In this document: one piece after another, positions 7,806-29,061 of the stretch
Position numbering within the stretch: the stretch's first letter is position 1
How the letters are laid out: every line of letters starts with the position of its first letter
NCBI GenBank assembly: GCA_963205275.1
Contig: CAUJIH010000026.1
Span: forward strand, 1-33,223
Direction of reading: 5' to 3'
DNA: 33,223 nt
DNA from: Verrucomicrobiota bacterium
GTDB taxonomy: Bacteria; Verrucomicrobiota; Verrucomicrobiia; Verrucomicrobiales; DEV007
Notes under the pieces: generated by a model
What the model was told of the DNA's origin: nothing
The model's input: the letters and a program-made list of their open reading frames with translations, nothing else
Database searches by the model: none
Position numbers and translations under genes: made by a program

Positions 7806-7871
7806 GGAATCGTTCAAAAATCTCGGGCACAGTCCATCATGCTGAGCAGTTTTCAAACTCCAATCTTAGCT

Positions 7872-8858: not shown

Positions 8859-9054
8859 CGCGCAATCAATGTCGCCAGACGGATAGGTCAAAAGAAATCT
8901 GAGATCCGTGTATTCTAACGTCGAACCGTGATCACGGCTCACTTGCAAAATCGAGATTGACAGTGAACAAGTGAGAGATTCCGCAGTCGAACGACTTCGG
9001 GCACATCGAGCCTCAGTTTCTCCTCTTCCTGTCTGTCTCTCCCTGTCTGTAACT
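8859..9054. promoter_or_regulatory. Divergent intergenic region, fmt and the 9055 gene
   Basis: A 196-bp gap between two outward-facing genes, so it should hold promoters for both. A perfect TTGACA at 8957-8962 has no convincing -10 box at normal spacing. I see no structured RNA. The presence of promoters follows from gene layout, not from motifs. Confidence 0.3.
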
Positions 9055-11993: not shown

Positions 11994-12005
11994 AATCGGG
12001 TGAAA

Positions 12006-12782
12006 ATGTCTGTTCTGAACCACTCCGGTCACGACTACGCCCTTCTTGTCGAGCGCTGGCAGAGCCTGGCAGTGGAGCACTCCCTCCACTCACAGGTGCT
12101 CTGCACCACGGAAAATCATCCCGTATTCGTTTTCGAAAACGAGGCATCGAAAGCAGGGCAAAGCGGTGGACTATACATCAGCACCGGCATCCACGGTGAC
12201 GAGTGCGCTCCTGTCTGGGCGCTCCTCGACTGGGTAGCAGAGAATCCCTCATTCCTCAGCACCCACCCTGTCGTAATTCTCCCCTGCCTGAACCCCGTCG
12301 GTCTGATCGCCAATCATCGTGAAGCGGCACATGGGATCGATCTGAATCGCCAATTCAACGATCCCTCCCATCCGCTGATCGCTGCCCTCCACCACTTCCT
12401 CCAGGGGCGCCGATTCGACTGCACCGTGACCCTGCACGAAGACTACGATTCCACTGGCATCTACCTCTACGAACTCTCCCTACGGGGCAGCCACGGCGAC
12501 GCTCTCCTCACCGCCTGCGAATCCACGATTCCTCGTGAAACCGCCACCGAAGTCGACGGGAACCCCTTCACCCGTGCCCTCCTCTTTCGTGATTATGGCG
12601 TGGATCGATTCATCGAAGAACAGCTCGGGGGAGGCTGGCCAGAGTCGATTTACCTCTTCCAGCATCATTCAGATCACTGCTACACATTCGAGACACCCAG
12701 CGAATTCGATCTCACGCGTCGCATCATCACCCATCGCCTCTTTCTCGATGCACTCGCTTGTCAGATCAGAACGGGAAACTGA
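12006..12782 (+). CDS. M14-like zinc hydrolase (succinylglutamate desuccinylase/aspartoacylase type)
   Basis: The 258-residue protein has the zinc site of the M14/AstE-AspA superfamily: HGDE (His63, Glu66), DLNRQFND, and a third ligand His144 in TLHEDYDS. The probable catalytic Glu229 is in FETPS. Such enzymes remove an acyl group or a C-terminal residue from small substrates. There is no signal peptide, so it is probably cytoplasmic. I chose ATG 12006 over GTG 12000 on codon grounds; neither has a strong ribosome site. Only 12 bp separate it from the hydrolase gene, so the three genes from 9055 to 12782 probably form one operon, perhaps handling a shared peptide or ester substrate (inference). 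Confidence 0.85.
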   Translation: MSVLNHSGHDYALLVERWQSLAVEHSLHSQVLCTTENHPVFVFENEASKAGQSGGLYISTGIHGDECAPVWALLDWVAENPSFLSTHPVVILPCLNPVGLIANHREAAHGIDLNRQFNDPSHPLIAALHHFLQGRRFDCTVTLHEDYDSTGIYLYELSLRGSHGDALLTACESTIPRETATEVDGNPFTRALLFRDYGVDRFIEEQLGGGWPESIYLFQHHSDHCYTFETPSEFDLTRRIITHRLFLDALACQIRTGN

Positions 12783-12870
12783 GCGCTAAAACGACCGATA
12801 CTGCGCATCATACCCTGTTGCTCGCATGATCAGACCGTGTTAAGCGTGACTTTTCAGAAAACGGCAGGAC

Positions 12871-13179
12871 ATGACAGCCATTCAAGACATTCAGATCATC
12901 GGAGACAATATCGCCATCAAATGGGAAGATGGGCACGAGACCTTCCACCAGATGGGACGGCTCCGCTCCCTCTCCCCCAGCGCCGAAACTTCGGGCGAAC
13001 GCGATCTACTGGGGAAGGAAATCGGCTACATTCCCAAAGGGCGCGATTATTCCGCCGTCACCGTCCGGAGCTGGAACTTTGTTGGAAACTACGCCGTACA
13101 ATTCCGCTTTTCCGATGGACACAGCTCAGGCATCTATTCCTACGACTATCTTCGCAGCATCGCCGATCCCGACGAGTAA
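12871..13179 (+). CDS. DUF971 (GBBH-like N-terminal) domain protein
   Basis: This 102-residue single-domain protein has a core of IKWEDGHETF, LRSLSPSAE and SWNFVGNYAVQFRFSDGHSSGIYSYDYL. That matches the DUF971 family, related to the N-terminal domain of gamma-butyrobetaine hydroxylases. In that larger enzyme the domain binds zinc; stand-alone copies are often linked to Fe-S or Mrp/ApbC proteins, but none is adjacent here. The start is ATG 12871, preceded by AGGAC, a weak Shine-Dalgarno sequence and one of the few in this window. It lies between the M14-like gene (88 bp) and purB (79 bp) on the same strand. Confidence 0.9.
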   Translation: MTAIQDIQIIGDNIAIKWEDGHETFHQMGRLRSLSPSAETSGERDLLGKEIGYIPKGRDYSAVTVRSWNFVGNYAVQFRFSDGHSSGIYSYDYLRSIADPDE

Positions 13180-13258
13180 TCGTTCTTTTCGATATTAGAT
13201 TTCCACGGCATTCTGCTGATCAGACTTTCCCCTTTTTCACAAAGTTTCTTTTTCTCTT

Positions 13259-14677
13259 ATGATTCCCAACATCCTCGCCGAACGATACGCCAGCTCCGCC
13301 ATGAAGGCCATCTGGTCTCCCGAAGGCAAAGTGCGGCTCGAGCGCGAACTCTGGATCGCCGTAATGAAAGCCCAGCGCGATCTGGGGCTTGACATTCCCG
13401 CCGAGGCCATCACCGCCTATCAGAGCGTCGTCGATCAGATCGATCTCGCCTCCATCGACGCTCGTGAGCGCATCACCCGACACGACGTGAAAGCGCGCAT
13501 CGAAGAATTCTGCGAGCTCGCCGGACACGAGCATATTCACAAAGGCATGACTAGCCGAGATCTGACGGAGAACGTGGAACAGCTCCAAGTCCACCGCTCT
13601 CTCGGGGTCGTGCGCACTCTCGTCGCTTCGGCCCTCCATCGACTGGCAGGACGAGCCAAAGAATTTCGTAGCCTGCCCATCACGGCCCGCACGCATAATG
13701 TCGCAGCGCAGATCACTACACTGGGAAAGCGCGTCGCCATGTTCGGCGAAGAACTCCTTCATGCCGCCCAGGGACTGGAGGCTCTGATCACCCGCTATCC
13801 CGTGCGAGGCCTGAAAGGCGCTGTCGGCACCCAGCTTGACCAGTTGAGTCTATTCCACGGAGATACGATAAAAGTGCTGGAACTCGAACGTCGACTCGCG
13901 ACCCACCTGGGGGTCGGCAATCTATTCACCAACGTCGGTCAGGTCTATCCCCGCAGTCTCGATTACGAAGTCATCGCTGCACTCAACCTGCTCGCCTCTG
14001 CTCCGTCCAGCTTCGCAAAAACCCTGCGACTCATGGCCGGACATGAACTCGCAGGTGAAGGCTTCGCCAAAGGCCAAGTCGGATCCTCCGCTATGCCGCA
14101 CAAGATGAACAGCCGCAGTTGCGAACGGATCAACGGCTTCAAAGTCATCCTCGGCGGACACCTCGCGATGGCTTCATCTCTCGCCGGGGATCAGTGGAAC
14201 GAAGGGGACGTCTCCTGTTCTGTCGTGCGTCGCGTCATGCTTCCCGACGCCTTCTTCGCCATCGATGGACTCTTCGAGACCTTCCTCACCGTGCTCGATC
14301 AAATGGAAGCCAATCCCGCTGTAATCAAACGAGAGAATCAGCACTACCTCCCCTTCCTGCTGAGCACCACCTTCCTCATGACAGCCATCGAGCGAGGAAT
14401 CGGACGCGAAACTGCGCACGAAGTCATCAAGGAGCACGCCGTCGCCGCCGCCCACGCCTACCGCGCAGGCGAGTCCGAGCGCAACGATCTCGTCTCTCGT
14501 CTCGCCGCTGATTCCCGGCTCGGTATGAGCGAAGCCGAACTCCTCACCTGCCTCGCAGAAGGCAAAACCAACGCCGGGGCCGCTGAAGCTCAGACAGACC
14601 AGTTCATTGACGAGGCCGAAGTCTACGCCGCCTCCGTTCCCGATGCCCTCGACTACCAGCCCGGTAAAATTCTGTAA
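13259..14677 (+). CDS. purB: Adenylosuccinate lyase
   Basis: This 472-residue enzyme cleaves SAICAR and adenylosuccinate in purine synthesis. Signatures of the fumarase/aspartase superfamily are present: RITRHDVKARIEEF, GMTSRDLTEN, TARTHNVAAQ, and the loop GSSAMPHKMNS. It begins MIPNILAERYASSAMKAIWS, a typical PurB N-terminus, at the ATG at 13259. The length is normal. It acts with purA at 16867-18138, which makes its adenylosuccinate substrate, although that gene is on the opposite strand. Confidence 0.96.
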   Translation: MIPNILAERYASSAMKAIWSPEGKVRLERELWIAVMKAQRDLGLDIPAEAITAYQSVVDQIDLASIDARERITRHDVKARIEEFCELAGHEHIHKGMTSRDLTENVEQLQVHRSLGVVRTLVASALHRLAGRAKEFRSLPITARTHNVAAQITTLGKRVAMFGEELLHAAQGLEALITRYPVRGLKGAVGTQLDQLSLFHGDTIKVLELERRLATHLGVGNLFTNVGQVYPRSLDYEVIAALNLLASAPSSFAKTLRLMAGHELAGEGFAKGQVGSSAMPHKMNSRSCERINGFKVILGGHLAMASSLAGDQWNEGDVSCSVVRRVMLPDAFFAIDGLFETFLTVLDQMEANPAVIKRENQHYLPFLLSTTFLMTAIERGIGRETAHEVIKEHAVAAAHAYRAGESERNDLVSRLAADSRLGMSEAELLTCLAEGKTNAGAAEAQTDQFIDEAEVYAASVPDALDYQPGKIL

Positions 14678-14750
14678 AGAAGCCCTCTCGAAAGGATGAA
14701 GGCACAAGTCCCAAGGGCCTTTCTAACTCATAACTCATAATTTCACCCCC

Positions 14751-16082
14751 ATGTCCCCGCAGCTTTCTGAGCTCTTCGAGTTCCTCCGTTTCCCCAGCAT
14801 CTCCACCGACAGAAGCCATCGGGAGGACATGCACCGTTGCGTCGGTTTTTTACAAAAGAAACTCAGCTCGATGGGACTTGACGCCAAGGTCCACCAGACC
14901 GCAGGCCATCCCATCCTAGTCGCGAAGAATCCACCTCGCCCGGATCGACCGACTGTGATGATCTACGGTCACTACGATGTCCAACCCGTCGATCCGCTTC
15001 ACGAGTGGAAAACTCCCCCCTTCGAGCCAACTCTGGTCGGTGATAAAATCTACGCTCGCGGAGCGACTGATAATAAGGGACAGCACTTCGCCCACATCCT
15101 CGGAGTCGAGGAGACCTTGAAGGAATACGGCGAACTCCCCGTCAATGTGATCTTCCTGCTCGAAGGCGAGGAGGAAATCGGGTCCGTTAACCTCGGCTCT
15201 TTTCTCACTCAGCATCGGGACTATCTGCGATGCGATGTCTGTGCGGTGTCTGATACCGGCATGATCGCTCCCGGCATTCCCACCTTCACCTACGGTCTGC
15301 GTGGAATCGCCTGTCTGGAATTCACCGTGCGCGGTCCTGCGCTCGATCTACACTCTGGGGTCTACGGTGGTGCGATCCGCAATCCTTGCTCAGCTGTAGC
15401 ACAGATGGTCGCCTCTCTGCACGACTCTGAGGGCAGAATCCTCATCTCCGGATTTTACGACAGCGTACAGCCCCTGGAGAGATGGGAGCGTGAAATGTGG
15501 GCTAGCCTGCCTGACGGCGATGCCGCCACACTCGCCGAAACCGGAGTCCCCGCGCTCTGGGGAGAGGACGGCTACACGGCGCTCGAACAGCGATGGGGAC
15601 GCCCGACTGCTGAAGTCAACGGCATCGGCGGCGGCTACCAGGGAGAGGGTTCCAAGACCGTAATCGCCCGTGAAGCATTCGCCAAGCTCAGTTTCCGGCT
15701 CGTGCCTGACCAGCAGCCGGACGAGATTCTACGCCTGGCTGCCGATCATCTTCGGGCCATCTGTCCGACAGGCTGCACTGTCGAAGTTACGCTGGGCCAT
15801 GCTGGGCCTGCCTACGTCATGGATCCCCATTCATCCCACGGTCAGGCCGCTCAGCGAGCGCTCAGTCGCGCCTTCGACGGAAAAGAGCCGCGCCTGATTC
15901 GTGAAGGCGGCAGCATTCCTATCATCCAGTCCGTGAAGGACATTCTCGGAGTCGATAGCCTCCTTCTCGGACTCGCCCTCCCCGACTGCCAAATCCATGC
16001 TCCCAACGAGAACTTCACCGTCACCAACTTCGAAGCGGGGATTCGACTGAATCGTGCCTTGTTAGAAGAACTGGCAAAGTGA
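14751..16082 (+). CDS. M20-family dipeptidase/metallopeptidase
   Basis: This 443-residue cytosolic-type peptidase belongs to the M20 dipeptidase group. It has the di-zinc site: His74 and Asp76 in GHYDVQPV, Asp107 in RGATDNKG, the catalytic/metal pair Glu141-Glu142 in EGEEEIGS, an Asp in SDTGM, and a later His in the HAPNENF segment. The lid domain lies between (about 190-310). It should hydrolyse dipeptides or N-acylated amino acids. There is no signal peptide. It starts with ATG 14751, after a short 'aactcataactcataattt' intergenic motif, and ends 32 bp from the convergent uppS. Confidence 0.92.
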   Translation: MSPQLSELFEFLRFPSISTDRSHREDMHRCVGFLQKKLSSMGLDAKVHQTAGHPILVAKNPPRPDRPTVMIYGHYDVQPVDPLHEWKTPPFEPTLVGDKIYARGATDNKGQHFAHILGVEETLKEYGELPVNVIFLLEGEEEIGSVNLGSFLTQHRDYLRCDVCAVSDTGMIAPGIPTFTYGLRGIACLEFTVRGPALDLHSGVYGGAIRNPCSAVAQMVASLHDSEGRILISGFYDSVQPLERWEREMWASLPDGDAATLAETGVPALWGEDGYTALEQRWGRPTAEVNGIGGGYQGEGSKTVIAREAFAKLSFRLVPDQQPDEILRLAADHLRAICPTGCTVEVTLGHAGPAYVMDPHSSHGQAAQRALSRAFDGKEPRLIREGGSIPIIQSVKDILGVDSLLLGLALPDCQIHAPNENFTVTNFEAGIRLNRALLEELAK

Positions 16083-16114
16083 AGAGCGAAAGAATTTGGG
16101 GAGCCTTGATCTCC

Positions 16115-16843
16115 TCACAATCCACCATAACGACGGTGGCGGTGTTGATATTCGACGATGGCAGCTTCCAGATGCTCTCTTCGAAAATCAGGCCAGAGCA
16201 CTTCGGAGATTACGATTTCTGTATAACTTATCTGCCAAAGGAGAAAGTTAGAGATTCTGCATTCTCCGCTAGTCCGGATGAGCAAGTCGGGGTCGGGAAT
16301 CCCGACGGTGAACAAGTGGCGTGCAAAAGTCTCTTGGTCCAGATCTGCGGGAGCGAGCTCTCCCATCCGAGCCTTCTCCATCAGATTTCGTGTGGCTTCG
16401 ACGATTTCCTCCCGTGCTCCATAGCCGAGGGCGACGATCAGAGTCAGGCGCGTGTTTCCCGCCGTGAGCGAAATCGTATCCTCTAACAGCTCTCGTGTTT
16501 CCGGAGGAATGCGTTCCAGATTCCCGATCACTCGCAATCGGATATTGTCTCGAATCAAGGTCTCAGCCTTTTCTGCGAGAAAATGCGCGAGGAGGGCCAT
16601 GATGGCATCTACCTCGACCGCAGGACGCTTCCAGTTTTCTGAACTGAAGGCGTAGAGCGTCAGGTATTCGATGCCGAGGTCGCCACAACTCTGAATCACG
16701 TCTTCCACCGAATCCGCTCCAGCGATGTGGCCGTCGTGTCGGGGGAGTCCCCGCGCACTCGCCCAGCGACCATTGCCATCCATGATGACAGCGATGTGTC
16801 GGGGAAGTGCCGTGAGATCGAGTGCCGAATCAAGGACTGTCAT
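16115..16843 (-). CDS. uppS: Isoprenyl transferase (undecaprenyl diphosphate synthase)
   Basis: This cis-prenyltransferase makes the polyprenyl carrier for cell-wall polymers. Its 242 residues carry the standard motifs: IAVIMDGNGRWA (catalytic Asp22), GHIAGADSVEDVI, LYAFSSENWKRP, and PDLLIRTSGECRISNFLLWQISYTEI near the C-terminus. The length is normal. The start is ATG 16843, 23 bp downstream of the purA stop on the same strand, so it is probably cotranscribed with purA. Confidence 0.96.
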   Translation of the reverse strand: MTVLDSALDLTALPRHIAVIMDGNGRWASARGLPRHDGHIAGADSVEDVIQSCGDLGIEYLTLYAFSSENWKRPAVEVDAIMALLAHFLAEKAETLIRDNIRLRVIGNLERIPPETRELLEDTISLTAGNTRLTLIVALGYGAREEIVEATRNLMEKARMGELAPADLDQETFARHLFTVGIPDPDLLIRTSGECRISNFLLWQISYTEIVISEVLWPDFRREHLEAAIVEYQHRHRRYGGL

Positions 16844-16866
16844 GGAGGATTCGGCGGGAAGGGTGG

Positions 16867-18138
16867 TCAGCGCACGATCGTTTGTTCTCGGGACGGGCCT
16901 ACGCCGACCATGGCTACGGGCGTCTCAGTTTCCGTCTCGATCCTCGCGAGATAGGCGTGAGCCTGTGGCGGCAGATCTTCCCAGCGCTTCACCTGCGAGA
17001 GATCGCACTGCCATCCAGGCAGACTTTCGTACACAGGGACCACTCGCTGAAGATCATGGATGGAGGCAGGAGGAAGAGTAAGCTTCTTCCCGTCCAGCTC
17101 GTAATGCGAGCAAATGGGAATCTCGGCACAGTCGTCCAAGCCATCGAGGATGGTGATGGCTAGCTCGGTAAAGCCGTTGACCATCGCCGCGTAGCGGACG
17201 AGAACGAGATCGAGCCAGCCGCAGCGGCGCTTGCGTCCGGTCGTGGCTCCGAATTCTCGCCCCATGCCGTGAAAGCGGTCGGCCAGCGCATCGTCCTGAG
17301 TCGGGAAAGGGCCTTCTCCAACGCGGGTGGTGTAAGCCTTGGTCACTCCGACGACGCGATCAATGCGATGAGGAGGCACGCCCGAGCCGGTGCAGGCTCC
17401 ACCGGAGGTAGTGTTCGATGAGGTCACGTAAGGATAGGTACCCTGATCGACATCTAGGAAAGTGCCCTGAGCACCCTCGAACAGAAGCATGCGTCCGGCC
17501 TTCATTTCCCGATGAAGAATCGCTACCGTGTCGGCACAGTAGGGAGCCAATCGTCGCCCGGCGGCCAGCAGCTCTTCTTCTGCCGCAGTCGCATCGATTG
17601 GGGCCATCCCCACAGTCTCAAACAGGCGATTGCATTCCTCAATTCGGGAGTGAAGACGCTCGACGAAACTGGCCGAGCCACTCACGAGTTCGTGCAGTCG
17701 GAAACCGATGCGATCAATCTTGTCTCCGTAGGCGGGACCGATTCCTCGTTTGGTCGTTCCGATTTTCACCGCCCGATTTGCCTCCTTGAAAGCGTCCATT
17801 TCCCGGTGAAAGGGCATCACTAGGTGAGCGCGATCTGAGATCGAGAGATTCTTAGGTGAGATCTCTATCCCATCTTCGACGAGTCCATCGATTTCCTTTA
17901 GAATCGCGACGGGGTCCATCACGACACCGTTCCCGATCACGCAGAGCTTCTCCGGCCAGAGAATGCCCGAGGGGATGAGGTGGAGGATGTACTGATGCCC
18001 GTCATTAATGACAGTGTGACCAGCATTATTCCCTCCCTGGGCACGTACGACTACGTCGGCCCGATCAGTCAGCAGATCGACGATTTTGCCTTTTCCTTCG
18101 TCACCCCATTGGGCACCGATCACGATGGTATTGGACAT
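16867..18138 (-). CDS. purA: Adenylosuccinate synthetase
   Basis: PurA joins IMP and aspartate with GTP. From ATG 18138 the protein has 423 residues and begins MSNTIVIGAQWGDEGKGKIV, the GTP-binding loop of the family. Other signatures are GGNNAGHTV, TTKRGIGPAYGDK, FEGAQGTFLDVDQGTYPYVTSSN and GEGPFPTQ. The 14 extra codons upstream are not part of the family. It is followed by uppS. The FHA gene lies 112 bp upstream on the same strand. Confidence 0.97.
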   Translation of the reverse strand: MSNTIVIGAQWGDEGKGKIVDLLTDRADVVVRAQGGNNAGHTVINDGHQYILHLIPSGILWPEKLCVIGNGVVMDPVAILKEIDGLVEDGIEISPKNLSISDRAHLVMPFHREMDAFKEANRAVKIGTTKRGIGPAYGDKIDRIGFRLHELVSGSASFVERLHSRIEECNRLFETVGMAPIDATAAEEELLAAGRRLAPYCADTVAILHREMKAGRMLLFEGAQGTFLDVDQGTYPYVTSSNTTSGGACTGSGVPPHRIDRVVGVTKAYTTRVGEGPFPTQDDALADRFHGMGREFGATTGRKRRCGWLDLVLVRYAAMVNGFTELAITILDGLDDCAEIPICSHYELDGKKLTLPPASIHDLQRVVPVYESLPGWQCDLSQVKRWEDLPPQAHAYLARIETETETPVAMVGVGPSREQTIVR

Positions 18139-18250
18139 GAAAAATTCTGGATAAGAGAAAAGTGAGCCATATTCCCTCACGCGGAAGGAATCAATCGAAT
18201 ATTGCGTCAGAAATATCTACGTCGAGCCAATTCAGGCCAAATCAGACCCA

Positions 18251-18787
18251 TTAGGCTGACATGATTTGCGTGGCGAAGAAGAACAGTACCCCGACCGCCA
18301 AGAGTCCGATCACGCCAAAAATGGAAGCGAACAGAACCAGCGTATTTGTCGGCTTCACCTTCTCGATGGGCGAAAGATTCTGGAATCCGGCGGGCTTTCT
18401 TGAAGATTGGGCGACCTCGACGAAGGACTCATGAGCGAATCCATGTCCATGACCAGAGTACGACGCAGATGGCGCTGAATCACTGTGTGCAGTTGCGTTC
18501 TGAGCAGAGAACACGGCCTGGATCGCACCGAAAACGACCGTACTACCATCTCCCATCGCTGTGTCCGTGACAGCCTCGCCGTCGAGATAGGTGCCATTCG
18601 TCGAATCGGTATCCTGAATCCTGAACGTGCCACCTGAATTGTAAATCAACGCATGAGAACCGGAGAGCGATGAGTGATCGATTCTGATGTCATTGTCGGG
18701 ATTACGACCAATGTAAAATTGCTCGCGACCATCTAGAGAATAGCTGATCGGATCCTGGTCGGGAAGATAAACGGTAAGTGAAGCCAT
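18251..18787 (-). CDS. FHA-domain protein with a C-terminal membrane anchor
   Basis: The 178-residue protein carries an FHA phosphothreonine-binding domain (about 20-95) with the conserved GRNPDND, SSLSGSH and DTDSTNGTYLDG segments. A His/Ser/Gly/Ala-rich linker follows, then one transmembrane helix (about 150-172, LVLFASIFGVIGLLAVGVLFFF) with a very short tail. This is a tail-anchored layout with the FHA domain in the cytoplasm. The partner, presumably a Thr-phosphorylated protein, is not in the window. It lies 26 bp downstream of carA, so it is probably cotranscribed. Function beyond phosphopeptide binding is unknown. Confidence 0.85.
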   Translation of the reverse strand: MASLTVYLPDQDPISYSLDGREQFYIGRNPDNDIRIDHSSLSGSHALIYNSGGTFRIQDTDSTNGTYLDGEAVTDTAMGDGSTVVFGAIQAVFSAQNATAHSDSAPSASYSGHGHGFAHESFVEVAQSSRKPAGFQNLSPIEKVKPTNTLVLFASIFGVIGLLAVGVLFFFATQIMSA

Positions 18788-18813: not shown

Positions 18814-19998
18814 TTACTTGGATTGATCAATCATTTTGGCAAATTCTTCGAAAATGTCGAACACATCGTTCGTTCGAGGAGCCGCAGAAGGGATACACTG
18901 AAGGGAGATCGCAGGAAGTTCGCGATGGCGCGTGCCCTCGATCGTACCGTCGTTTAGATTTCGATGCGTCACTTCCAGGACGGAGGGAACAGAGCTTTCG
19001 TCAACGGCGAAGCCCTGATTCTGATGCGTGATCGCTACGCCTCCGGAACGGAGATCCTGGACCGGCTGTCCGTTGTGATGACCGCTATGCAGAGCGCGAG
19101 TACGTCCACCGAGAGCATGGGCCAGAATGAGATGCCCTAATCCGATCGCTAGAATTGGCTTACGCCCGAGAAGCTGGCGTACAGTCTCGTGAATTTTCTC
19201 CAGCGCGGCGGGATCGCCAGGACCGTTCGAAAGAACGATGCCGTCGGGATTCGTCGCCAGAATTTCATCAGCGGAGGCGAAGGCATTCACTACCTCGACG
19301 CGAAACCCCTTCTGTCGCAGACTGGAAAGAAATCCGCGTCCGATTCCGAGATCGAGCGCGACGAGTCTGTGACGCGTGGGAGGAAGCGATACGAAGCAGT
19401 CCTTCCCCTCCATCGTGTAAGGCACCGGCGAAGTCGGATTTCTGACGACCCACTCGCGACTAAGACGATCCTCGGGATCCCAGAGATAATTTTGCTTCGT
19501 CGTGACTTCGCTAACGAGCTTGCTGCCTTTCAGCGAATCCGAACGACGTGCCAAGTCCACGGCTGCTGCTTCATCGAGACTGCCATCGGTACAGAGGACA
19601 GCTCGCATCGTCCCGGATTCCCGCAGTCGGCGCGTGAGCGCCCGCGTATCGATGCCCTGAATTCCGGGGACTCCAGCAGCAGCTAGATTCTCGTGCAACG
19701 ACTGCTGACTCCGCCAACTGCTCGGGTGCTCGCATAATTCCTCGACCACGAGTCCGCTGACCTGAGGACGGTCGCTCTCAGCATCGAGTTCATTCATACC
19801 GGTGCTCCCGATGTGGGAATAGGACATCGCCAGCATCAGTCCACGGCTGGCGGGATCGGTGAGAATTTCCTGATAGCCGGACATGGCGGTGGAGAAGCGC
19901 GCTTCCCCTGTGCGTGTCGTCGAGGCACCGAATCCCGTTCCCCGAAAGACCGTTCCGTCCTCTAGGGCGAGGATGGCCTGATTGTGTTGCTTTGGCAT
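18814..19998 (-). CDS. carA: Carbamoyl-phosphate synthase small subunit homologue, glutaminase triad missing
   Basis: This 394-residue protein aligns over its full length with CarA. The N-terminal domain is typical (FSTAMSGYQEILTDPASRG, SYSHIGSTGMNE, GIQGIDTRALTRRLRESG). The GATase-1 domain keeps LSNGPGDPA, but its active site is lost. The nucleophile Cys of 'ICLGHQ' is Gly286 (AIGLGHLILA). The His and Glu of 'HPEA' are Ile369 and Ser371 (LQCIPSAAP). NHG is NQG. The frame is intact with normal length. It probably cannot release ammonia from glutamine: it may be a structural or ammonia-dependent partner of CarB, or a paralogue of a functional CarA elsewhere. No carB is in the window. Confidence 0.9.
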   Translation of the reverse strand: MPKQHNQAILALEDGTVFRGTGFGASTTRTGEARFSTAMSGYQEILTDPASRGLMLAMSYSHIGSTGMNELDAESDRPQVSGLVVEELCEHPSSWRSQQSLHENLAAAGVPGIQGIDTRALTRRLRESGTMRAVLCTDGSLDEAAAVDLARRSDSLKGSKLVSEVTTKQNYLWDPEDRLSREWVVRNPTSPVPYTMEGKDCFVSLPPTRHRLVALDLGIGRGFLSSLRQKGFRVEVVNAFASADEILATNPDGIVLSNGPGDPAALEKIHETVRQLLGRKPILAIGLGHLILAHALGGRTRALHSGHHNGQPVQDLRSGGVAITHQNQGFAVDESSVPSVLEVTHRNLNDGTIEGTRHRELPAISLQCIPSAAPRTNDVFDIFEEFAKMIDQSK

Positions 19999-20061: not shown

Positions 20062-21294
20062 TTATCTATCGTCGTTCAGTTGAGTATCGATTTCGACGGT
20101 TCCGCTCGTCAGCGTGCGATGGACGGGGCAACGATTAGCGATCTCCAGCAGACGCTGAAGCTGATCCTGATCGAGATTCCCTGTGATGCTGACGGTGCGG
20201 GTAAAGTGATCAGTGAAGACTGCGGGAGTCCCATCGGGGACCGCTCCCTGACGCTTTTCGTGCTGTAGGTTCACGCTCACCTCTTCCAGTGGCCACTGCT
20301 TGCGCGAAGCATACATTTTCAGCGTCATGACCGTGCAGGCACCGAGAGCAGCACAGAGCAAGTCGTAGGGCGAAGGCCCCAAATCATCGCCGCCCACATC
20401 CTTCGGCTCGTCTGCGATCAGGCGGTGAGAACCAACGGTGATCTCCGATGTGTAGCGCGGCCCTTGGAGGGAAACCGTGACTCCGTCCGCGCTCAGATTC
20501 TGCGAGCCAGATTCAGAATCGCTCTCAGCAGCAGCCGTCAGATAACGACCGGCCCAAGCGGCGATCACGTTCGCCGCATAGGCGGAATCTCGAGAATCAG
20601 TCAGCAGATGATTGGCTCCGTCGAGAGAGACGAAGCTCTTCGGATGGCGGGCGGCCTGATAAATTTGGGCCGCATTATCGATTCCGACGATCTGATCCTG
20701 GGGAGAGTGCATGACTAGCAGAGACTTCCCAAAGTTGCGAATAATTTCCGCTGTGGAGTGAGCTTCCAGATCGAGGATAAACTCGGCTCCGATTTTCATG
20801 GGACGGCCTCCGATGGAGACGACAGCGACTCCTTTGGCGAGGATTTCATCACGACTTTCTCGCAAAAGCGCCAGAACATGCACTGCCTCCATCGGAGCGC
20901 CGATGGTGCAGACGGCTCGGACCTCCGGCAGCAGTCGCGCTGCGTGTAGGACCGCTGTTCCGCCGAGAGAGTGACCGATCAGCAACTCAGGACTCTGGTA
21001 ATGCTCGCTCAGATAATTCGCCGCAGCGACTAGGTCAGAGAGATTGGTAGTGAAGGATGTCTCCGAGAAGCAGCCTTCGCTATCACCGAGCCCCGTAAAG
21101 TCGAAGCGAAGAACTCCGAATCCGCACTCGGTGAGGCCGCGAGAAATATGAACGGCAGCGAGAGAATTCTGTCCGCAGGTGAAGCAATGAGCGAAAATCG
21201 CGAAGTGCGTGGGCTGTCTCGTGGACGGCAGTTCGAGTTTTGCACTCAAAGTGATTCCCTGTTCATTAGGAAAGCTGAGAGAGACTGTTTTCAT
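20062..21294 (-). CDS. Alpha/beta hydrolase-OsmC fusion
   Basis: This is a 410-residue two-domain protein. Residues 1-250 form an alpha/beta hydrolase with [11 protein letters not shown], a nucleophile in GHSLGG (Ser109), Asp200 (SPQDQ) and His229 (GANHLL). Residues about 265-410 form an OsmC/Ohr-type thiol peroxidase domain with the two reactive cysteines, Cys320 (LGACT) and Cys389 (NRCPVHRTL). OsmC proteins reduce organic hydroperoxides; the fused hydrolase may act on related lipid or ester substrates. This fusion is known in other bacteria. It starts at ATG 21294, 60 bp after the last Mrp gene and 63 bp before carA. Confidence 0.92.
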
Positions 21295-21354: not shown

Positions 21355-23154
21355 TTATCCTCGACGAAATGCGGTATAATAGACCAACGAGAGCAGACCG
21401 AGCAGGATCACGGCACCGAAGACGGTCACTCCCACAGGGAAGGCATCAGATCGCATCCGCGCCGCCAGAGACACGCGACCTTGTGCGATCTGTTCCTCAT
21501 CACGCCCCGAAAGCCTCCATAGTGGCACCATTACGAGACAGGCGATGCGAGCGGAACCAGATTCGAAAAACCGCGTGAGTCCACCGATCACGCTTCCCTG
21601 CACGATCCGGGCTACTGCAGAATTCAGCGAGTTCAGAATGCGATCTGCCAAGCGATACACCACGGCCCCGCCACGCCGATAGAACCATTCCGCATCCAGA
21701 TTTACTGCGCGAACTTCCGCCGGATAGAGCCCCGCCAACATCAGCAGGGTGAAGGCCAGCGCACTGAAGAGCAGCAGCGAATACTGATCGAGAACATGAC
21801 CGAACGTATAAGGCACATATCCTGAAGCCAGATTCGGCAGCATGGGATAAAGGAAGGAATCCGGGAACGTGCCAATGAAAAGGCAGAAAAAGGCAGCAAT
21901 TCCCATCGCCAGAAGTTGATTGATCGGAGCTTCCTTGCAACGAATCCCCGAATCGTGAGAAAAAAAGGCGAAGAAGGGGATTTTGATTCCCGCGTGATGA
22001 AAAACGCCAGCCGATGCAAACAGCAGAGCCAGCCAGACCAAGACGTGTCCTCCATCCGCTGCCGCACTCATAATCATCGACTTGCTCACGAATCCGCTGA
22101 AGAATGGGAAAGCGGAAATGCTCGCCGCGCCGATGCAGCAAAACAGGCAGGTCAGAGGCATCGAGCGCACCAGCCCTCCCAGTTCCGTGGCCTTCGACTT
22201 GCCGGTACGGTAGATCACCGATCCGATGGACATGAAGAGCAGGGCTTTGTACAAAATATGGCAATAGGCATGAGCTGCCGTTCCATCCAGTGAAAGAGTC
22301 GTACCGAGCCCGACGCCCACCACCATGAAGCCGACCTGGTTGATCAACGAATAGGCTAGCACACGTCGCAGATCGTTCTCGATCACAGCGTAGAAGATAG
22401 GCACGACTGCCATGATAACGCCGATCCAGATCAGCGTCGGCTCTCCAGAAAAGGTTCGGGCCAGCACATAAACAGCCGTTTTCGTCGTGAAGGTGGCCAT
22501 GAACACGACCCCGCCGATCGAGGCCTCAGGATAGGTATCCGTCAGCCAGGCCCCCAGAACCGGCCAAGCGCAATTGATCCCGAATCCGATGAACATCAGC
22601 CACGAGCCAACTCCTTCTAGCCCGATCTGATCGAAGGCAGTGCTTCCTCCCTCGGCAATATGGACCACGATCCCCGCCATCAGAACTCCTCCGCCGAAGA
22701 GGTGAACCAGCAAGTAACGCACTGCAGCCTTCCCCGACTCGACCGTTTTTCTCGCCAGCAGGCAGAGAACAGCTCCGACGGTCAGCATCTCCCAGAAGAC
22801 AAACATCGTCAGAATATCTCCCGCCATCACCACCCCCATCGCACTACCGGCATAGAGGAGGCCACCAACGAGATCGAGCGGATTATTGTCACGGATCACG
22901 TAGAGGATGCCGATAAAGGACAGCAAGGTAAAAACGTGGAGGAAAATCAAGCTCCACGAGTCAACACGTCCGAGAATCAACTCGAAGTCTAGCAATTCAA
23001 AGCGCCAGTGAACACCCCGGCTGAGCAGGTAGTAGTTAAAAAAAGCCACCACCGGAACCGCGAGGGCGAAAACCTGGCGCAATCGTCCCCGCAGAAACGG
23101 AATGAGTGCCGCTCCGACGAGGAAAATGAGGGAAGGTGGGAGTGCCTCAGGCAT
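21355..23154 (-). CDS. Mrp-type antiporter, third ND-like subunit
   Basis: This 599-residue multi-pass membrane protein belongs to the proton-pumping NADH dehydrogenase/Mrp family (NuoL/M/N, MrpA/D). Conserved sites are the TM5 Glu (VFWEMLTVG) and a Lys in FTTKTAVYVLAR. The TM7 segment reads GFGINCAWPVLGAWLTDTYPEAS, with Asn where the usual Lys would be. As far as I recall, this fits a subgroup of Mrp D-type proteins with 'NAA.P.L..WL.DAYPEAS'. A long C-terminal part (about 430-599, NLDAEWFYRRGG onward) ends in a final TM helix. It overlaps the small gene before it by 8 bp. It is the last gene of the antiporter operon. Confidence 0.9.
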   Translation of the reverse strand: MPEALPPSLIFLVGAALIPFLRGRLRQVFALAVPVVAFFNYYLLSRGVHWRFELLDFELILGRVDSWSLIFLHVFTLLSFIGILYVIRDNNPLDLVGGLLYAGSAMGVVMAGDILTMFVFWEMLTVGAVLCLLARKTVESGKAAVRYLLVHLFGGGVLMAGIVVHIAEGGSTAFDQIGLEGVGSWLMFIGFGINCAWPVLGAWLTDTYPEASIGGVVFMATFTTKTAVYVLARTFSGEPTLIWIGVIMAVVPIFYAVIENDLRRVLAYSLINQVGFMVVGVGLGTTLSLDGTAAHAYCHILYKALLFMSIGSVIYRTGKSKATELGGLVRSMPLTCLFCCIGAASISAFPFFSGFVSKSMIMSAAADGGHVLVWLALLFASAGVFHHAGIKIPFFAFFSHDSGIRCKEAPINQLLAMGIAAFFCLFIGTFPDSFLYPMLPNLASGYVPYTFGHVLDQYSLLLFSALAFTLLMLAGLYPAEVRAVNLDAEWFYRRGGAVVYRLADRILNSLNSAVARIVQGSVIGGLTRFFESGSARIACLVMVPLWRLSGRDEEQIAQGRVSLAARMRSDAFPVGVTVFGAVILLGLLSLVYYTAFRRG

Positions 23155-23485
23155 CGGTCTGATTTTCGGACTTGAAATCGCTGACTTCGTCGCGCTGATA
23201 GTAGTTCTCCCCTCGCATCACCAGCGGACGCACGATGAAACGAGACACGAGCACCAGCAAGGAACACATGACAAAGCCGAACACGGCATAAAACCCCGGC
23301 CAGCGCTCCCAGCCAAAATGAGGATGCAGATCGACTCCGCTCAGCAGGACAACTAGATCGACCAGCACCAGCAGTCCGCAGGCGATGGCCAGACCGGCGA
23401 TCACGCGCCGGACATTCTGCGGGCGAAGAAACCAAGTCGGCATCTCGGCAGGATCGGGAGAGGATGAGGAATCGGAGGGATTCAT
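23147..23485 (-). CDS. Small membrane protein of the Mrp cluster
   Basis: This 112-residue protein has two predicted membrane helices (about 28-48 and 65-86) separated by a motif HPHFGWERWPGFYAVFGF. An acidic C-terminal tail follows (MRGENYYQRDEVSDF). It overlaps the third large subunit by 8 bp, so it is almost certainly coexpressed. I recall similar small proteins next to multi-D-subunit Mrp clusters of other bacteria, but they have no assigned role. It is probably an accessory subunit. Confidence 0.8.
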   Translation of the reverse strand: MNPSDSSSSPDPAEMPTWFLRPQNVRRVIAGLAIACGLLVLVDLVVLLSGVDLHPHFGWERWPGFYAVFGFVMCSLLVLVSRFIVRPLVMRGENYYQRDEVSDFKSENQTDA

Positions 23486-23502
23486 TGAAGCAAAACTCAG
23501 AG

Positions 23503-23697
23503 TTACGCAGGAGACTCCGGAGTAGCCGCGGTGGGGGAGCCTGGGGAATTAGGCACCGAATCCTTCTTCAGCAATCCGGAGCCAACGATGAAAATGATCG
23601 CTAGGTAGAAACACATCGTCGCGAAGACGACTTCGAAAATGTGGAGAAAGCCAGGTTTTGCCTCGTGTCTGAGTTCCTGAAGTGGTGCTGAGCTCAT
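23503..23697 (-). CDS. Very small membrane protein of the Mrp cluster
   Basis: This is a 64-residue protein with one hydrophobic helix (about 21-42, VFATMCFYLAIIFIVGSGLL). A charged N-terminal part (LQELRHEAKPGF) precedes it and a Pro/Ser/Ala tail follows. It lies between the second large ND-like subunit and the two-helix protein, all on the minus strand with short gaps. Position and membrane character suggest a small antiporter subunit. There is no recognised family. Confidence 0.7.
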   Translation of the reverse strand: MSSAPLQELRHEAKPGFLHIFEVVFATMCFYLAIIFIVGSGLLKKDSVPNSPGSPTAATPESPA

Positions 23698-23733
23698 CGC
23701 GTTCGAATGTTGAGAGATCGGATATTGAAAAAA

Positions 23734-25254
23734 TTACGGGTTGGCGACACCACCGTGCAGAACGATGGAGGCAAGATCGTAGAAGGTGCTAGGGAAGAAA
23801 AAGAGCAGGATAGAACTGATCGCAGTGAAGGCTAGAGGAAGCACACAGAGCAAGGGCGCTTCCCGCCAGCCATGCACACAGCAGGCACCGTCTGCATGAA
23901 TCGCATCCATTTCCGGCTCGGGTAGGAAGAAAGCTCGATACACCACAGGAAAGAAATACGCTCCATTCAGCACAGAACTGATCAAAAACGCACAGAGAAG
24001 AGCGATCTGATGCGCCTCTGCCGCCCCCCAGACCAGATAGAGCTTGCTCAGGAATCCCCCCATCGGAGGCAGTCCCGTCACACTGGCCGCACCGATGGCG
24101 AAAGCAGCAAACGTGATCGGCATCCGCCGCCCCAGTCCATTCAGCTCACTGATCTGCTTTTTCCCCGTCGCTACGAAAATCGCTCCGGCACAGAAAAAGA
24201 GAGTAATCTTCCCGAAGGCATGCATCGCGATGTGAAGAATGCTGCCGAGCGCTGCGTGCTCCGTCAGCAGCGCGATCCCGAGAATGATGTAGGAAAGCTG
24301 CCCGATCGTGGAAAATGCGAGCATCCGCTTCAGATTATCCTGAGTCAAAGCGATCAGCGAAGCCGCGACCAAGGTGATCGCCGCGATCCAGCAAAGGACG
24401 AGATGAATCCCCAAGCCCCCAAGAAGATCCATCCCGAACACATTCAGCACCGTGCGGATAATACAGAAAACGCCGACTTTCACCACAGCCACCGCGTGCA
24501 GCAAAGCAGAGACAGGAGTCGGGGCGACCATCGCGCCCGGCAGCCATGAGTGCAGCGGCATCAGTGCCCCCTTGGAAAAGCCGAAGGCAAACGCAAGTAG
24601 CAGCGCCAGCCCCTGAACGTAGCTCAGATCAGTATTCGCTAAGATCGCCTGCACCCCGAAATCCAGCGTCCCTGATTTCACCCAGACATATATCATGGCC
24701 GGGATCACGAAGGCAATCGACGTCCCCAGCAGATGCACCAGATACGAGCGCCCTCCACGGCGCGCCTCTGCATCCTGGTGATGCGTCACCAGCGGCCAGG
24801 TCGAGAGTGAAAGAACCTCATAGAAAACGTATAGCGTGAGCAGATTTCCCGCGAAGGCGACGCCCAGCGTGGCGAACAGCGAGACCGCAAAAAAGACGTA
24901 AAATCTCGTCTGCGAATGCTCCTTCAGTCCGCGCATATAACCGATCGAGTAGATCGATGTGGGAATCCAGAGAATCGATGCCACCAGAGCGAAGACCATC
25001 CCCAGCCCGTCCACTCGGAAGGCAATCGGCACCAGCCCATCCGACCCACCACCGAACAGGGTTAGCTCGATCATACTACCCTGTAGAATGATGGGGAGCA
25101 TCGCCAGCACGAAGCACAGTTTCGCAATTCCAGCCAGAATTGTAACCGCCTCACGAAGAAAAGTTTCACGCCGGAAGAGCAGAATCAAAGGCACCGCAGC
25201 CAGCGATGAAAGGCAGGCCCAGAGCGGCAGATAACTTTGAATACTGTTCTCCAT
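23734..25254 (-). CDS. Mrp antiporter core subunit, MrpA/NuoL-like
   Basis: This 506-residue multi-pass protein of the ND/Mrp superfamily resembles the N-terminal core of MrpA. The conserved sites are YVFYEVLSLS (TM5 Glu), GFSKGALMPLHSWLPGAMVAPTPVSALLH (TM7 Lys and the MrpA/NuoL loop), VVKVGVFCIIR (Lys), DNLKRMLAFSTIGQLSYI and GLPPMGGFLSK. It lacks the long C-terminal extension of full MrpA. The equivalent pieces appear to be the DUF4040 gene at 28057 and the N-terminal part of the gene at 27239. It starts right at the stop of the preceding MrpD-like gene (stop and ATG adjacent). Likely forms part of the cation/proton path. Confidence 0.9.
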   Translation of the reverse strand: MENSIQSYLPLWACLSSLAAVPLILLFRRETFLREAVTILAGIAKLCFVLAMLPIILQGSMIELTLFGGGSDGLVPIAFRVDGLGMVFALVASILWIPTSIYSIGYMRGLKEHSQTRFYVFFAVSLFATLGVAFAGNLLTLYVFYEVLSLSTWPLVTHHQDAEARRGGRSYLVHLLGTSIAFVIPAMIYVWVKSGTLDFGVQAILANTDLSYVQGLALLLAFAFGFSKGALMPLHSWLPGAMVAPTPVSALLHAVAVVKVGVFCIIRTVLNVFGMDLLGGLGIHLVLCWIAAITLVAASLIALTQDNLKRMLAFSTIGQLSYIILGIALLTEHAALGSILHIAMHAFGKITLFFCAGAIFVATGKKQISELNGLGRRMPITFAAFAIGAASVTGLPPMGGFLSKLYLVWGAAEAHQIALLCAFLISSVLNGAYFFPVVYRAFFLPEPEMDAIHADGACCVHGWREAPLLCVLPLAFTAISSILLFFFPSTFYDLASIVLHGGVANP

Positions 25255-26787
25255 CTATTCTTGCATCGACACGATGTCAATATTCTCCACAACTGTTCCC
25301 CGGATCAGATCGATGACCGGACGATTGAAGATGCCGAGCAGGAGGGTCAGCGCGGCTGCGACCAGTAGCGGTGCCGTCCTCCAAGCAGCATGCCTCCCGC
25401 GAGTGGGGCATCCTCCCTCCGATGACTCTGATGACTCAGGCACCTCCCCAAAATAGGCGATTTCGAAAATACGGAAAAACAAGATGGCGTTCACTAGACT
25501 CGATCCCAACAAAGCAACAATGTAAAGCCAGTGGCCTGAATCGATGGCTCCTCGGATCAGATAAAATTTGCTAAAAAAGCCGCACATCGGAGGTACGCCG
25601 ATCATCGCCAGCCCCCCGAGGGTAAAGGCACCTGCCGCCCAGGGAGAACGGCGAAAGAGTCCCGAAAGATGCTCCAGTCTCGTCGCCCCGAACTGCTTCG
25701 CAAAGACACCCGCCGCTAGGAAGAGGCAAGAAGTCATCATGGCATCCGCCAAGATGTGATACATCGATCCCGTCAGCCCCCAGCGTCCGGCATCGCCCAG
25801 CCAAGTGCCGCCGACCATGTAACCGACCTCCGCTACGATCAGACAGCAGAGCATTTTCTTAATTTCTCGCTGTGTCAGTGCCATCACCGATCCCGCCACG
25901 ATGGAGCCAACCGCGATCAAGACCACCAGATCACTCCAGCCCGGATTCTCCGTAATCACACCCAGTCCGAAAACACCGAACAGGATGCGTATCATTACAT
26001 AGACGGAAACCTTCGTCACCAGCGGAGCCATTAGATTAGCACTGCCGGATGGGCAGTAGCTATAGGCATTCGGCAACCAACCATGCAGGGGGAAAAGGCC
26101 CATTTTCGTCCAAACACCCAGTAAGATAAAAACCAGTGCAGTGCCGATGATTCGAGAGTTCGCAATCTCAGGATTAGCCGCTAGGATCGTTCGAATATCG
26201 GCCATGTTTAGCGAGCCGACAGCCAGATAGAGGTAGCCTACGCCGATCAGATAAAAGGACGCCCCTACCGTGCCGATCACCAGATACTGGAAGGCAGCGA
26301 CTCTCGAGCGACGAGAGCTTCCTATCGCTACCAAGCCGTAGCTAGTCAGTGCCGTGATTTCGATCAACACGTAAACATTGAAGGCGTCTCCTGTAATCGT
26401 GATCCCGAATAGCCCGACGCAAAGCAGCAAAAAGAGCACGTAGAAAAATGGCGACTTCTCCGCATCCTTTTCTCCGTCCTGACGGATCGAATACACCAGA
26501 GCGAGCAATGCGACTACCGCGATGGCGAGTAGCAGTAGACTGTTCACTCCATCCGCTCGCAACTGGATACCAACTCCATGAGGACTTTCCCATCCTCCTA
26601 CGAAATAATCCCAAGCGCCCACTGTGGCGACGTGATGAACGACTCCAATCGAGCAGACGAACGACAGTGCAAGAGCCGTCAGCGCGATGGGGAAGCATAG
26701 GTGACGATCTCGTGTGCCAAAAAATCCGACAATGACAGCCCCGAAAAGAGGCGCAAGGACGACTATGACGGGTAAGTGCTCAGACAT
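25255..26787 (-). CDS. mrpD: Mrp antiporter subunit D-like
   Basis: A 510-residue multi-pass ND/Mrp family protein from ATG 26787. The conserved residues are in place: Glu in VYVLIEITALTSYG, Lys in GVWTKMGLFPLHGWLPNAYSY, Lys in APLVTKVSVYVMIR, REIKKMLCC, and IGVPPMCGFFSKFYLI. This makes it the best candidate for the MrpD proton-translocating subunit. The start was chosen because the longer frame to 26841 only adds non-family residues. It overlaps the C-type subunit gene by 8 bp (26780-26787). A histidine-poor cytoplasmic loop near the C-terminus (EVPESSESSEGGCPTRGRHA) is unusual but not diagnostic. Confidence 0.93.
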   Translation of the reverse strand: MSEHLPVIVVLAPLFGAVIVGFFGTRDRHLCFPIALTALALSFVCSIGVVHHVATVGAWDYFVGGWESPHGVGIQLRADGVNSLLLLAIAVVALLALVYSIRQDGEKDAEKSPFFYVLFLLLCVGLFGITITGDAFNVYVLIEITALTSYGLVAIGSSRRSRVAAFQYLVIGTVGASFYLIGVGYLYLAVGSLNMADIRTILAANPEIANSRIIGTALVFILLGVWTKMGLFPLHGWLPNAYSYCPSGSANLMAPLVTKVSVYVMIRILFGVFGLGVITENPGWSDLVVLIAVGSIVAGSVMALTQREIKKMLCCLIVAEVGYMVGGTWLGDAGRWGLTGSMYHILADAMMTSCLFLAAGVFAKQFGATRLEHLSGLFRRSPWAAGAFTLGGLAMIGVPPMCGFFSKFYLIRGAIDSGHWLYIVALLGSSLVNAILFFRIFEIAYFGEVPESSESSEGGCPTRGRHAAWRTAPLLVAAALTLLLGIFNRPVIDLIRGTVVENIDIVSMQE

Positions 26788-27235
26788 CGTCTTGAATCGT
26801 CTGGATCTGATTGAGGATTTCTGGTTCTTCCAGAGTGCCAAAATCCCGGAAAATCACCTGACACAGAGCGAGGGCTACCCCGAGAGTCGCCACCCCCACT
26901 ACGATAGCCGTCAGCATGAGAACGTGAGGCAGAGGATTGGCAAAAAGATCCGGATTGATGGGAAAAGCCGTCGCCCCAGCAGCTCCCCCTCCCTGTGCCA
27001 TAAAGTCGACCGCAGCCTCGCCCATCGTTTCATCCACGATGGGAATCGATGCTCCCTCTTTTACCCCCATCGAGACGTAGAGCAAGAGGATCGCCGTCTG
27101 AAAGATCGAAAGCCCGATCAATTTCTTGATCAGATTATTTTTCCCAATCGCCGCCCAAAGGCCCAGCATCATGATCACCACATAGATCCAGAAATTAAAA
27201 TGCGGAACTATCGTCGTTTTAATCCACTCCATCAT
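26780..27235 (-). CDS. mrpC: Mrp antiporter subunit C (NuoK-like)
   Basis: This 151-residue membrane protein has three hydrophobic helices. The NuoK/MrpC hallmark appears as GKNNLIKKLIGLSIFQTAILLLYVSMG, followed by NPLPHVLMLTAIVVGVATLGVALAL. An Ala/Gly-rich insert of about 30 residues (AVDFMAQGGGAAGATAF) separates the second and third helices and makes it longer than a typical 110-residue MrpC. It overlaps the D-like gene by 8 bp and starts 3 bp after the MrpB gene. MrpC contributes one of the ion channels at the interface with the large subunits. Confidence 0.93.
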   Translation of the reverse strand: MMEWIKTTIVPHFNFWIYVVIMMLGLWAAIGKNNLIKKLIGLSIFQTAILLLYVSMGVKEGASIPIVDETMGEAAVDFMAQGGGAAGATAFPINPDLFANPLPHVLMLTAIVVGVATLGVALALCQVIFRDFGTLEEPEILNQIQTIQDDV

Positions 27236-27238
27236 CGC

Positions 27239-28057
27239 TCACAGCCCTCCTTTCAATTCACCCCGAGTGGAGAGATTCGCGAACAGCGCGAACATGACGG
27301 ACGTCACCGTCATCGCCACTCCCAATTCCACACCGAAAATTCCATGCGAGCGTGCCATTTCTTCACCCCCCGTCTGTAACAGGCCGCTCAGAGCTCCGTA
27401 ATCGAGGAAGTTCCGACGAAAGAACAGGCTCAAGAGACCTATTCCCGCGTAGATGAAAACCCCTAGGCAGGCGAGGCGCAGATACATATCCTCCCGCAGT
27501 CGCCCCAATGCACTCCCCAGCCCTCCCGCCAGAGCGAGCAGAATGAAGCTAGTGCCGAGCACCACCCCTCCTTGGAAGCCACCTCCAGGACTCGGATGTC
27601 CGTGGGCGATGATGTAAAAACCAAATAATTGAGCCAGCGGCACAACCACCCGACAAGCCGTACCTACCACGACGCGGTGGCGGCCCTCCCCGTCAGAATC
27701 ACTCGTCGAAAATTCTCCCGAGCACGCCTTTTCCTCACTACCAGTGCTTTCTTCCTCATCCTTGCGACGCACCACTCGTAGAATCGCGAAGACCGCTATC
27801 CCCGCTGTGAGAATTACAGCCGTCTCGAAAAGTGTATCGTAGCCCCGGTAGTCTGCTAGGACGGCGGTGACCACATTCGGCACCCGCGTGTCCAGATAGG
27901 TGTTCTGCAGATAATGGACTGAGGAAGAAACTGATCCGCCGCTGACTCCTGAGTTCGGAGGAGAGTGTGGATCGCCAAATCGCGGAAAATCCTCCACTGC
28001 ATTGAGAAGGATCGCACCCGTGATGATCACGGCGATGGTGGCGAAAAGTTTCTGCAT
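27239..28057 (-). CDS. mrpB: Fused MbhE-like domain and MrpB
   Basis: This 272-residue protein appears to be a fusion. Residues 1-100 (LFATIAVIITGAILLNAV, NTYLDTRVPNVVTAVLADYRGYDTLFETAVILTAGIAVFAIL) match the MbhE-type C-terminal part of MrpA. Residues about 135-265 (AQLFGFYIIAHGHPSPGGGFQGGVV, AGIGLLSLFF, ELGVAMTVTSVMFALFANL) are MrpB. A charged Glu/Ser/Asp linker of about 35 residues joins them. MrpB is an integral part of the antiporter membrane complex. Its start overlaps the DUF4040 stop by one base (TGATG). Confidence 0.92.
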   Translation of the reverse strand: MQKLFATIAVIITGAILLNAVEDFPRFGDPHSPPNSGVSGGSVSSSVHYLQNTYLDTRVPNVVTAVLADYRGYDTLFETAVILTAGIAVFAILRVVRRKDEEESTGSEEKACSGEFSTSDSDGEGRHRVVVGTACRVVVPLAQLFGFYIIAHGHPSPGGGFQGGVVLGTSFILLALAGGLGSALGRLREDMYLRLACLGVFIYAGIGLLSLFFRRNFLDYGALSGLLQTGGEEMARSHGIFGVELGVAMTVTSVMFALFANLSTRGELKGGL

Positions 28058-28302
28058 CAGTCACTCGATTTTCGGGCTGTTTTAAAAATAGTCGCGATCA
28101 TCAAAGCTCCACTAATTCCTGCCCCCACCGTCGCTTCCGTGAAGGCCACATCCACAGCCCCCATCTCCGCCCAAATCAGACAAATGAGGAAGCCGTATGT
28201 ACTAAAGACCATCGCGGCACCCAATAGGTCACGCAGCTTCAGCGCAACCACCGCCGCGATTACGAGAAAAATGAGCAGGATGATGTCGAGAGGCAAAATC
28301 AC
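28057..28302 (-). CDS. DUF4040/MbhD-like antiporter subunit
   Basis: This small protein of 81 residues has three hydrophobic helices. The conserved centre, LRDLLGAAMVFSTYGFLICL… and WAEMGAVDVAFTEATVGAGI, is the MbhD/DUF4040 domain that normally lies in the C-terminal region of MrpA. It starts with GTG 28302 and overlaps mrpG by 4 bp (GTGA). Together with the N-terminal part of the next gene and the large core subunit at 23734 it covers the parts of a full MrpA. It carries the conserved acidic residues of the domain (WAEMGAVD, TEAT). Confidence 0.9.
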   Translation of the reverse strand: MILPLDIILLIFLVIAAVVALKLRDLLGAAMVFSTYGFLICLIWAEMGAVDVAFTEATVGAGISGALMIATIFKTARKSSD

Positions 28303-28718: not shown

Positions 28719-28732
28719 AACAAAAACCAATC

Positions 28733-29053: not shown

Positions 29054-29061
29054 GCAGGAAA

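Follow-up and report, generated by a model that had tools for sequence, protein, structure and literature searches.

In the textbook account, carbamoyl-phosphate synthase (CPSase) couples the hydrolysis of glutamine to synthesis by way of a tunnel, and vertebrate CPS1 provides a known example of a switch to ammonia. A gene in the window, by which we mean the whole stretch of 33,223 nucleotides analysed here, encodes a homolog of the small subunit, CarA, in which all three residues of the glutaminase triad have been replaced. This raises the question of what a glutaminase subunit without a glutaminase site might contribute to the cell, and whether the loss is confined to one genome or recurs among its relatives.

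A CarA homolog without its catalytic triad

The gene, its domains and the altered codons are located as follows:

18814..19998, minus strand: triad-less carA (pseudoglutaminase CarA), 394 aa, ATG to TAA; CPSase_sm_chain 153 bits, GATase 105.7 bits
19549..19998, minus strand: N-terminal CPSase small-chain domain, residues 1-150; the better-kept part (67% identity to the sister genome)
18817..19383, minus strand: class I glutamine amidotransferase domain, residues 206-394; the most accelerated part
19141..19143, minus strand: Gly286 (GGA) for the nucleophile Cys269
18892..18894, minus strand: Ile369 (ATC) for His353
18886..18888, minus strand: Ser371 (TCT) for Glu355
19129..19131, minus strand: Leu290 (CTC) for Gln273, glutamine-binding
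19849..19851, minus strand: Ala50 (GCC) for Ser47, glutamine-binding
19339..19341, minus strand: Gly220 (GGA) for Lys202
19015..19017, minus strand: Gln328 (CAG) for His312
18874..18876, minus strand: Arg375 (CGA) for Gly359, ammonia-tunnel wall

The plus strand of 18814-19998 is broken by stops, and the coding frame lies on the minus strand. The initial annotation described this frame as full length with a well-kept N-terminal domain, and both descriptions stand: there is no insertion and a single 1-residue deletion relative to ten relatives, and the identity of the N-terminal domain to the sister genome exceeds that of the GATase domain (67% vs 59%). Stops, frameshifts and large deletions, the usual marks of a pseudogene, are absent.

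Residue equivalences were set by aligning the window protein to the E. coli CarA chains of the PDB. The alignment places Gly286, Ile369 and Ser371 at E. coli Cys269, His353 and Glu355, as had been annotated, and the same is true of the Leu at the Gln of GLGHQ (Leu290 for Gln273) and of the change from NHG to NQG (Gln328 for His312). Three further replacements had been overlooked, namely S47A (A50), K202G (G220) and the tunnel-wall change G359R (R375), and Thr376 follows R375 directly, at E. coli Pro360. Asn311, the GPGDP loop, Gly313 and Phe314 are kept, and the protein retains 89 of 117 near-universal residues. Of eight active-site side chains listed from the E. coli literature, seven are changed, compared with 21 of the 109 other near-universal positions (Fisher p=1.6e-4), a distribution that indicates that the loss of the active site is not due to chance. 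Gly359 is known from E. coli mutants to line the ammonia tunnel; in the work of Huang and Raushel in 2000, bulky residues at position 359 reportedly block glutamine-derived ammonia while external ammonia can still be used. PDB entry 1m6v is the E. coli CarA G359F mutant.

The AlphaFold2 model of the window CarA has a mean pLDDT of 89.8, with its lowest values, below 50, at residues 373-377. Structure comparison gives Z 53 over 372 residues against E. coli CarA (39% identity) and Z 45 against CPS1, and on this model the CarA fold is predicted to be intact. In the profile search the protein scores 356.2 bits against TIGR01368 (cut-off 307.35) despite the missing catalytic triad; domain content and score thus place it inside the family, and the Cys-His-Glu that the family also calls for is Gly, Ile and Ser. 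Because the triad is gone, we file the protein as a CarA-family pseudoglutaminase and not as a glutamine-hydrolysing subunit, with glutamine hydrolysis predicted to be absent, even though NCBIfam would still assign the glutamine-hydrolysing name.

The native gene and a foreign carAB pair

The other carA and carB genes that the initial annotation proposed to look for are present in the genome: contig C75 bears a second carA, with its triad intact, next to its own carB, and another carB stands by itself on contig C68. The latter, the native carB, is a separate, unfused gene on a different contig from the window carA. Two neighbors in the window are informative about the history of carA:

18251..18787, minus strand: FHA-domain protein directly downstream of carA; a neighbor common to the genus
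16867..18180, minus strand: purA, the conserved carA neighbor in the genus and in Akkermansia, used here as a rate control

The gene order carA-FHA-purA is the order found in relatives of the same genus, and each relative examined has a single CarA. In the maximum likelihood tree the window CarA falls inside the genus, as sister to G039 (bootstrap 89), and the C75 CarA is placed far outside it, among other lineages of the phylum. Taken together, synteny and tree indicate that the window carA is the original, native and vertically inherited gene of this Verrucomicrobiales species, and that the intact C75 pair was acquired from outside. They rule out that the window gene is a duplicate copy, and they reverse the earlier suggestion of a "second CarA", for it is the window gene that occupies the ancestral position and the intact copy that arrived later. 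The triad is kept in all 44 other CarAs of the genus and order relatives whose triad is readable, and in 29 further CarAs of the phylum.

Contig C75 carries the only canonical dnaJ of the genome, 65-76% identical to dnaJ of the genus, and its G+C also matches; it therefore belongs to the window genome (109 contigs, contamination 0.22%). From their translations, the genes that follow the foreign carAB read as amtB, glnK, gdhA, hisH, hisF and glnA (C75 32000-50000, local 6833-18001), a group that reads as an ammonium-assimilation cluster.

Elsewhere in the window, a gene whose 410-aa product joins an alpha/beta hydrolase to an OsmC domain (20062-21294, minus strand) lies upstream of carA and was not found beside carA in the flanks of the relatives. 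A run of genes at 21355-29562 (minus strand) reads as a multisubunit Na+/H+ antiporter of the Mrp type, a small ribbon-helix-helix-like gene overlapping a PIN-domain-like gene at 30860-31545 (plus strand) looks like a VapBC-type toxin-antitoxin pair, and a fragment at 580-837 (minus strand) resembles the N-terminus of an IS30-type transposase.

Triad-less CarA in Akkermansia

When 388 genomes of the phylum were searched with PF00988, only the window genome and three Akkermansia genomes (G179, G227 and G237) turned out to have two complete CarAs, and in each of these four genomes one copy is triad-less, which rules out an oddity of a single genome; a fifth candidate, G346, has a split gene and was left out of the four. 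CarA without Cys269 occurs in 37 of 76 Akkermansia genomes, with Gly as the replacement, or Ser in three. Eleven of the 37 also hold an intact CarA (ten were read, and the intact copy of G439 was located only), and by profile count no intact CarA was found in the remaining 26. Fifteen of these 26 dead-only genomes are at least 90% complete, and every one of the 15 has exactly one CarB.

The 36 dead Akkermansia CarAs that were long enough for placement form one clade (local support 0.98). A common origin of the window and Akkermansia dead CarAs is rejected by the AU test (p=0.007, with a program warning that 5000 replicates are few). Because the Akkermansia clade is separate from the window CarA, the triad was lost at least twice. 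The idea that triad loss might define a clade is thus borne out within Akkermansia and does not extend to the window lineage, which lies outside and represents an independent loss. The dead CarA adjoins purA in all five Akkermansia loci inspected, as does the intact CarA in their relatives.

Among 12 close pairs of dead Akkermansia CarAs (dS 0.06-1.24), dN/dS ranges from 0.05 to 0.23, with ten of the 12 at or below 0.105, and over the whole gene a value of 1 is rejected for every pair (likelihood ratio statistics 15-264). The GATase domain alone, for which the initial annotation had proposed this measure, gives 0.03-0.12, and 0.28 in one very close pair; it is likewise far below 1 and, that pair apart, as constrained as the gene overall. 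Pairs of intact CarAs give 0.002-0.08. The dead CarAs are therefore constrained, somewhat less than the intact ones, and the low ratios indicate that they are functional proteins and not relics.

The A. muciniphila group (G155, G031, G035 and relatives) exhibits a third state of the CarA/CarB system, with an intact but divergent CarA adjacent to carB, a second CarB elsewhere in the genome, and no dead CarA copy found beside purA. In the single-contig Akkermansia genome G260 (C1 811900-813300), an intact-type CarA is read in two overlapping frames, as a frameshift or a broken gene.

Rate of evolution on the window branch

To describe the window lineage itself, we compared protein branch lengths on a fixed topology. 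Divided by the length of the remaining tree, the window branch comes to 1.19 for CarA, 0.25 for the native CarB and 0.27 for PurA, and within CarA to 0.73 for the N-terminal domain and 1.65 for the GATase domain. Only CarA is accelerated, most of all in its glutaminase domain, with the native CarB evolving at a normal rate; the window CarA branch is about nine times as long as that of its sister. Under neutrality, 160 missense changes would be accompanied by about 6.6 stops, with a probability of 0.002 that none occurs (0.05 for 80 changes). In codon models the synonymous sites of the window branch are saturated and GC3 is shifted from about 0.9 to 0.6; because of this saturation a codon-model dN/dS is unobtainable for the branch, and protein branch lengths together with close Akkermansia pairs serve as substitutes. 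The genes of the window species have a GC3 of about 0.60, compared with 0.80-0.94 in the nearest relatives within the genus, reflecting a shift in base composition along the branch.

Parallel changes in CarA and CarB

Intact CarAs have 121 universal positions, and at 14 of these the window protein and the majority of the dead Akkermansia CarAs have both lost the usual residue (Fisher p=3e-5); the shared sites include S50, Y51, K220, N222, C286, H328, H369, E371 and P376. The replacement residues differ among the subclades of dead CarA, as would be expected if the fold alone is kept.

The CarBs of dead-only genomes are well conserved, being changed at three to eight of 364 universal positions (one locus with a damaged N-terminal reading was excluded). 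These changes cluster at E. coli residues 250-300 (10 of 25, p=1e-6), a stretch that in E. coli contains the tunnel gate Ala251 and the tunnel-wall residue Arg265. They also coincide with changes in the native CarB of the window genome, including E278K and I296V (p=1.6e-6), although some of the parallels are conservative I/V swaps that recur easily, and Lys278 is also present in the foreign CarB of G227. CarA and CarB seem to have changed together, with the parallel CarB changes gathered about the point where ammonia enters.

Proposed role and alternative explanations

To account for these patterns, we propose that the triad-less CarA is probably a non-catalytic partner serving an ammonia-using CPSase; binding to CarB and the use of ammonia are the inferred parts of this proposal, which the initial annotation had already raised as one possibility, with CPS1 as the comparison. 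The native CarA would keep its fold and be unable to bind or hydrolyse glutamine, with the wall of the ammonia tunnel altered, and its part beside the native CarB may be that of a scaffold or an allosteric subunit. CarB would take up free ammonia, as vertebrate CPS1 does with its dead glutaminase-like domain. The foreign pair next to amtB-glnK-gdhA-glnA may supply the glutamine-dependent reaction in the window genome. CPSase would have to rely on ammonia in the 26 Akkermansia genomes in which no CarA other than the triad-less one was found. Two observations count against the proposal: the replacement residues vary from one subclade to another, and the foreign carAB could render the native CarA of the window genome dispensable.

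Among the alternatives, the one that survives best, though we consider it unlikely, is that the native carA became dispensable after the arrival of the foreign carAB and is decaying in the window genome. The presence of that pair and the ninefold branch are in keeping with such a history, but the gene has neither stops nor frameshifts and retains most of its near-universal residues, the native CarB evolves at a normal rate, the lost sites match those of the selected Akkermansia clade, and the dead CarA of Akkermansia is usually the sole CarA and under purifying selection.

Somewhat less likely again is a regulatory function, in which the dead CarA competes with an intact CarA for CarB, or relays effector signals, and so sets the use of glutamine by CPSase. 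Dead and intact CarAs coexist in 12 genomes (that of the window and 11 Akkermansia), the N-terminal domain and scaffold are retained, and CarB shows co-changes, all of which would suit such a role; the 26 Akkermansia genomes with no intact competitor found show that regulatory competition cannot be the general one. Because of the foreign carAB, regulation or gradual decay is less easily set aside for the window genome than for Akkermansia.

We regard as quite improbable a new role outside carbamoyl phosphate synthesis, for example in binding a ligand or in signalling, with CarB acting without a partner. The gene does lie apart from carB and beside purA in all these genomes, and the pocket residues vary among subclades, but this location is ancestral and is also found with an intact triad, and the parallel changes in CarB imply a link to CarB. 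An artefact of sequencing, assembly or binning, which the 109-contig assembly and our finding no second assembly of the window species might invite one to suspect, is hardly credible given some 160 coordinated substitutions without loss of frame, the native synteny, the same loss in 37 Akkermansia genomes, and a C75 contig that has the only canonical dnaJ and matching G+C in an assembly with 0.22% contamination.

Returning to the ammonia-using CPSase, we put at about even the chances of the broader reading that Verrucomicrobiales have evolved a two-subunit, ammonia-only CPSase at least twice, with a conserved pseudoglutaminase subunit and a CarB refitted at the ammonia entry, and that in Akkermansia this enzyme characterizes a whole clade, about half of the genomes examined, most of which have the dead CarA as their only CarA. 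If this is true, the synthesis of pyrimidines and of arginine is tied to free ammonia in many gut Akkermansia, whose CarA is then misnamed by the automatic annotation "glutamine-hydrolyzing carbamoyl-phosphate synthase small subunit". A dead glutaminase that is a separate gene and was lost at least twice offers a probe for roles of CarA beyond ammonia (stability of CarB, allostery, sealing of the tunnel), and the intact sister species serve as controls for the dead-CarA lineages.

Comparison with known systems

A dead glutaminase domain as such is known from CPS1; for a bacterial CarA without the triad, here a stand-alone pseudoglutaminase, our literature search, with subscription journals mostly outside its coverage, found no earlier report. 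Human CPS1 retains a dead glutaminase-like domain; with its old tunnel closed off, it uses external ammonia, which comes in by a different route (PMC4655335). Like the window protein, it has a CarA-like moiety (S1-S2) with the catalytic Cys replaced (Ser294 in human) and the fold retained, and an altered ammonia tunnel, with Gln318 at E. coli Gly293 (PMC4655335). The window CarA is a separate subunit, whereas CPS1 is a single fused polypeptide that N-acetylglutamate activates; CPS1 has lost only the Cys of the triad, whereas the window CarA has lost Cys, His and Glu and is changed at G359/P360, with the 1-residue deletion next to G293. The window protein thus shares with CPS1 the kept glutaminase-like domain without its catalytic Cys, and not the CarA-CarB fusion. 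CPS1 and the bacterial triad-less CarA are of independent origin.

With E. coli CarA, the window protein has in common its two-domain architecture, its fold and an orthologous family, but it lacks the triad and the side chains of Ser47, Lys202 and Gln273, and the tunnel-wall Gly359 is Arg. In Alcolapia CPS III the loss of a glutamine-binding residue has likewise been read as a convergent adaptation to ammonia (PMC7657897), although that fish enzyme retains its catalytic triad. Some bacteria and yeast have one CPSase specific to arginine and another specific to pyrimidines (PMC6245113), and they resemble the window genome and 11 Akkermansia genomes in having two CPSases per cell; in those pairs, however, both small subunits are taken to hydrolyse glutamine, whereas in the present case one of them is dead and the other pair is of foreign origin.
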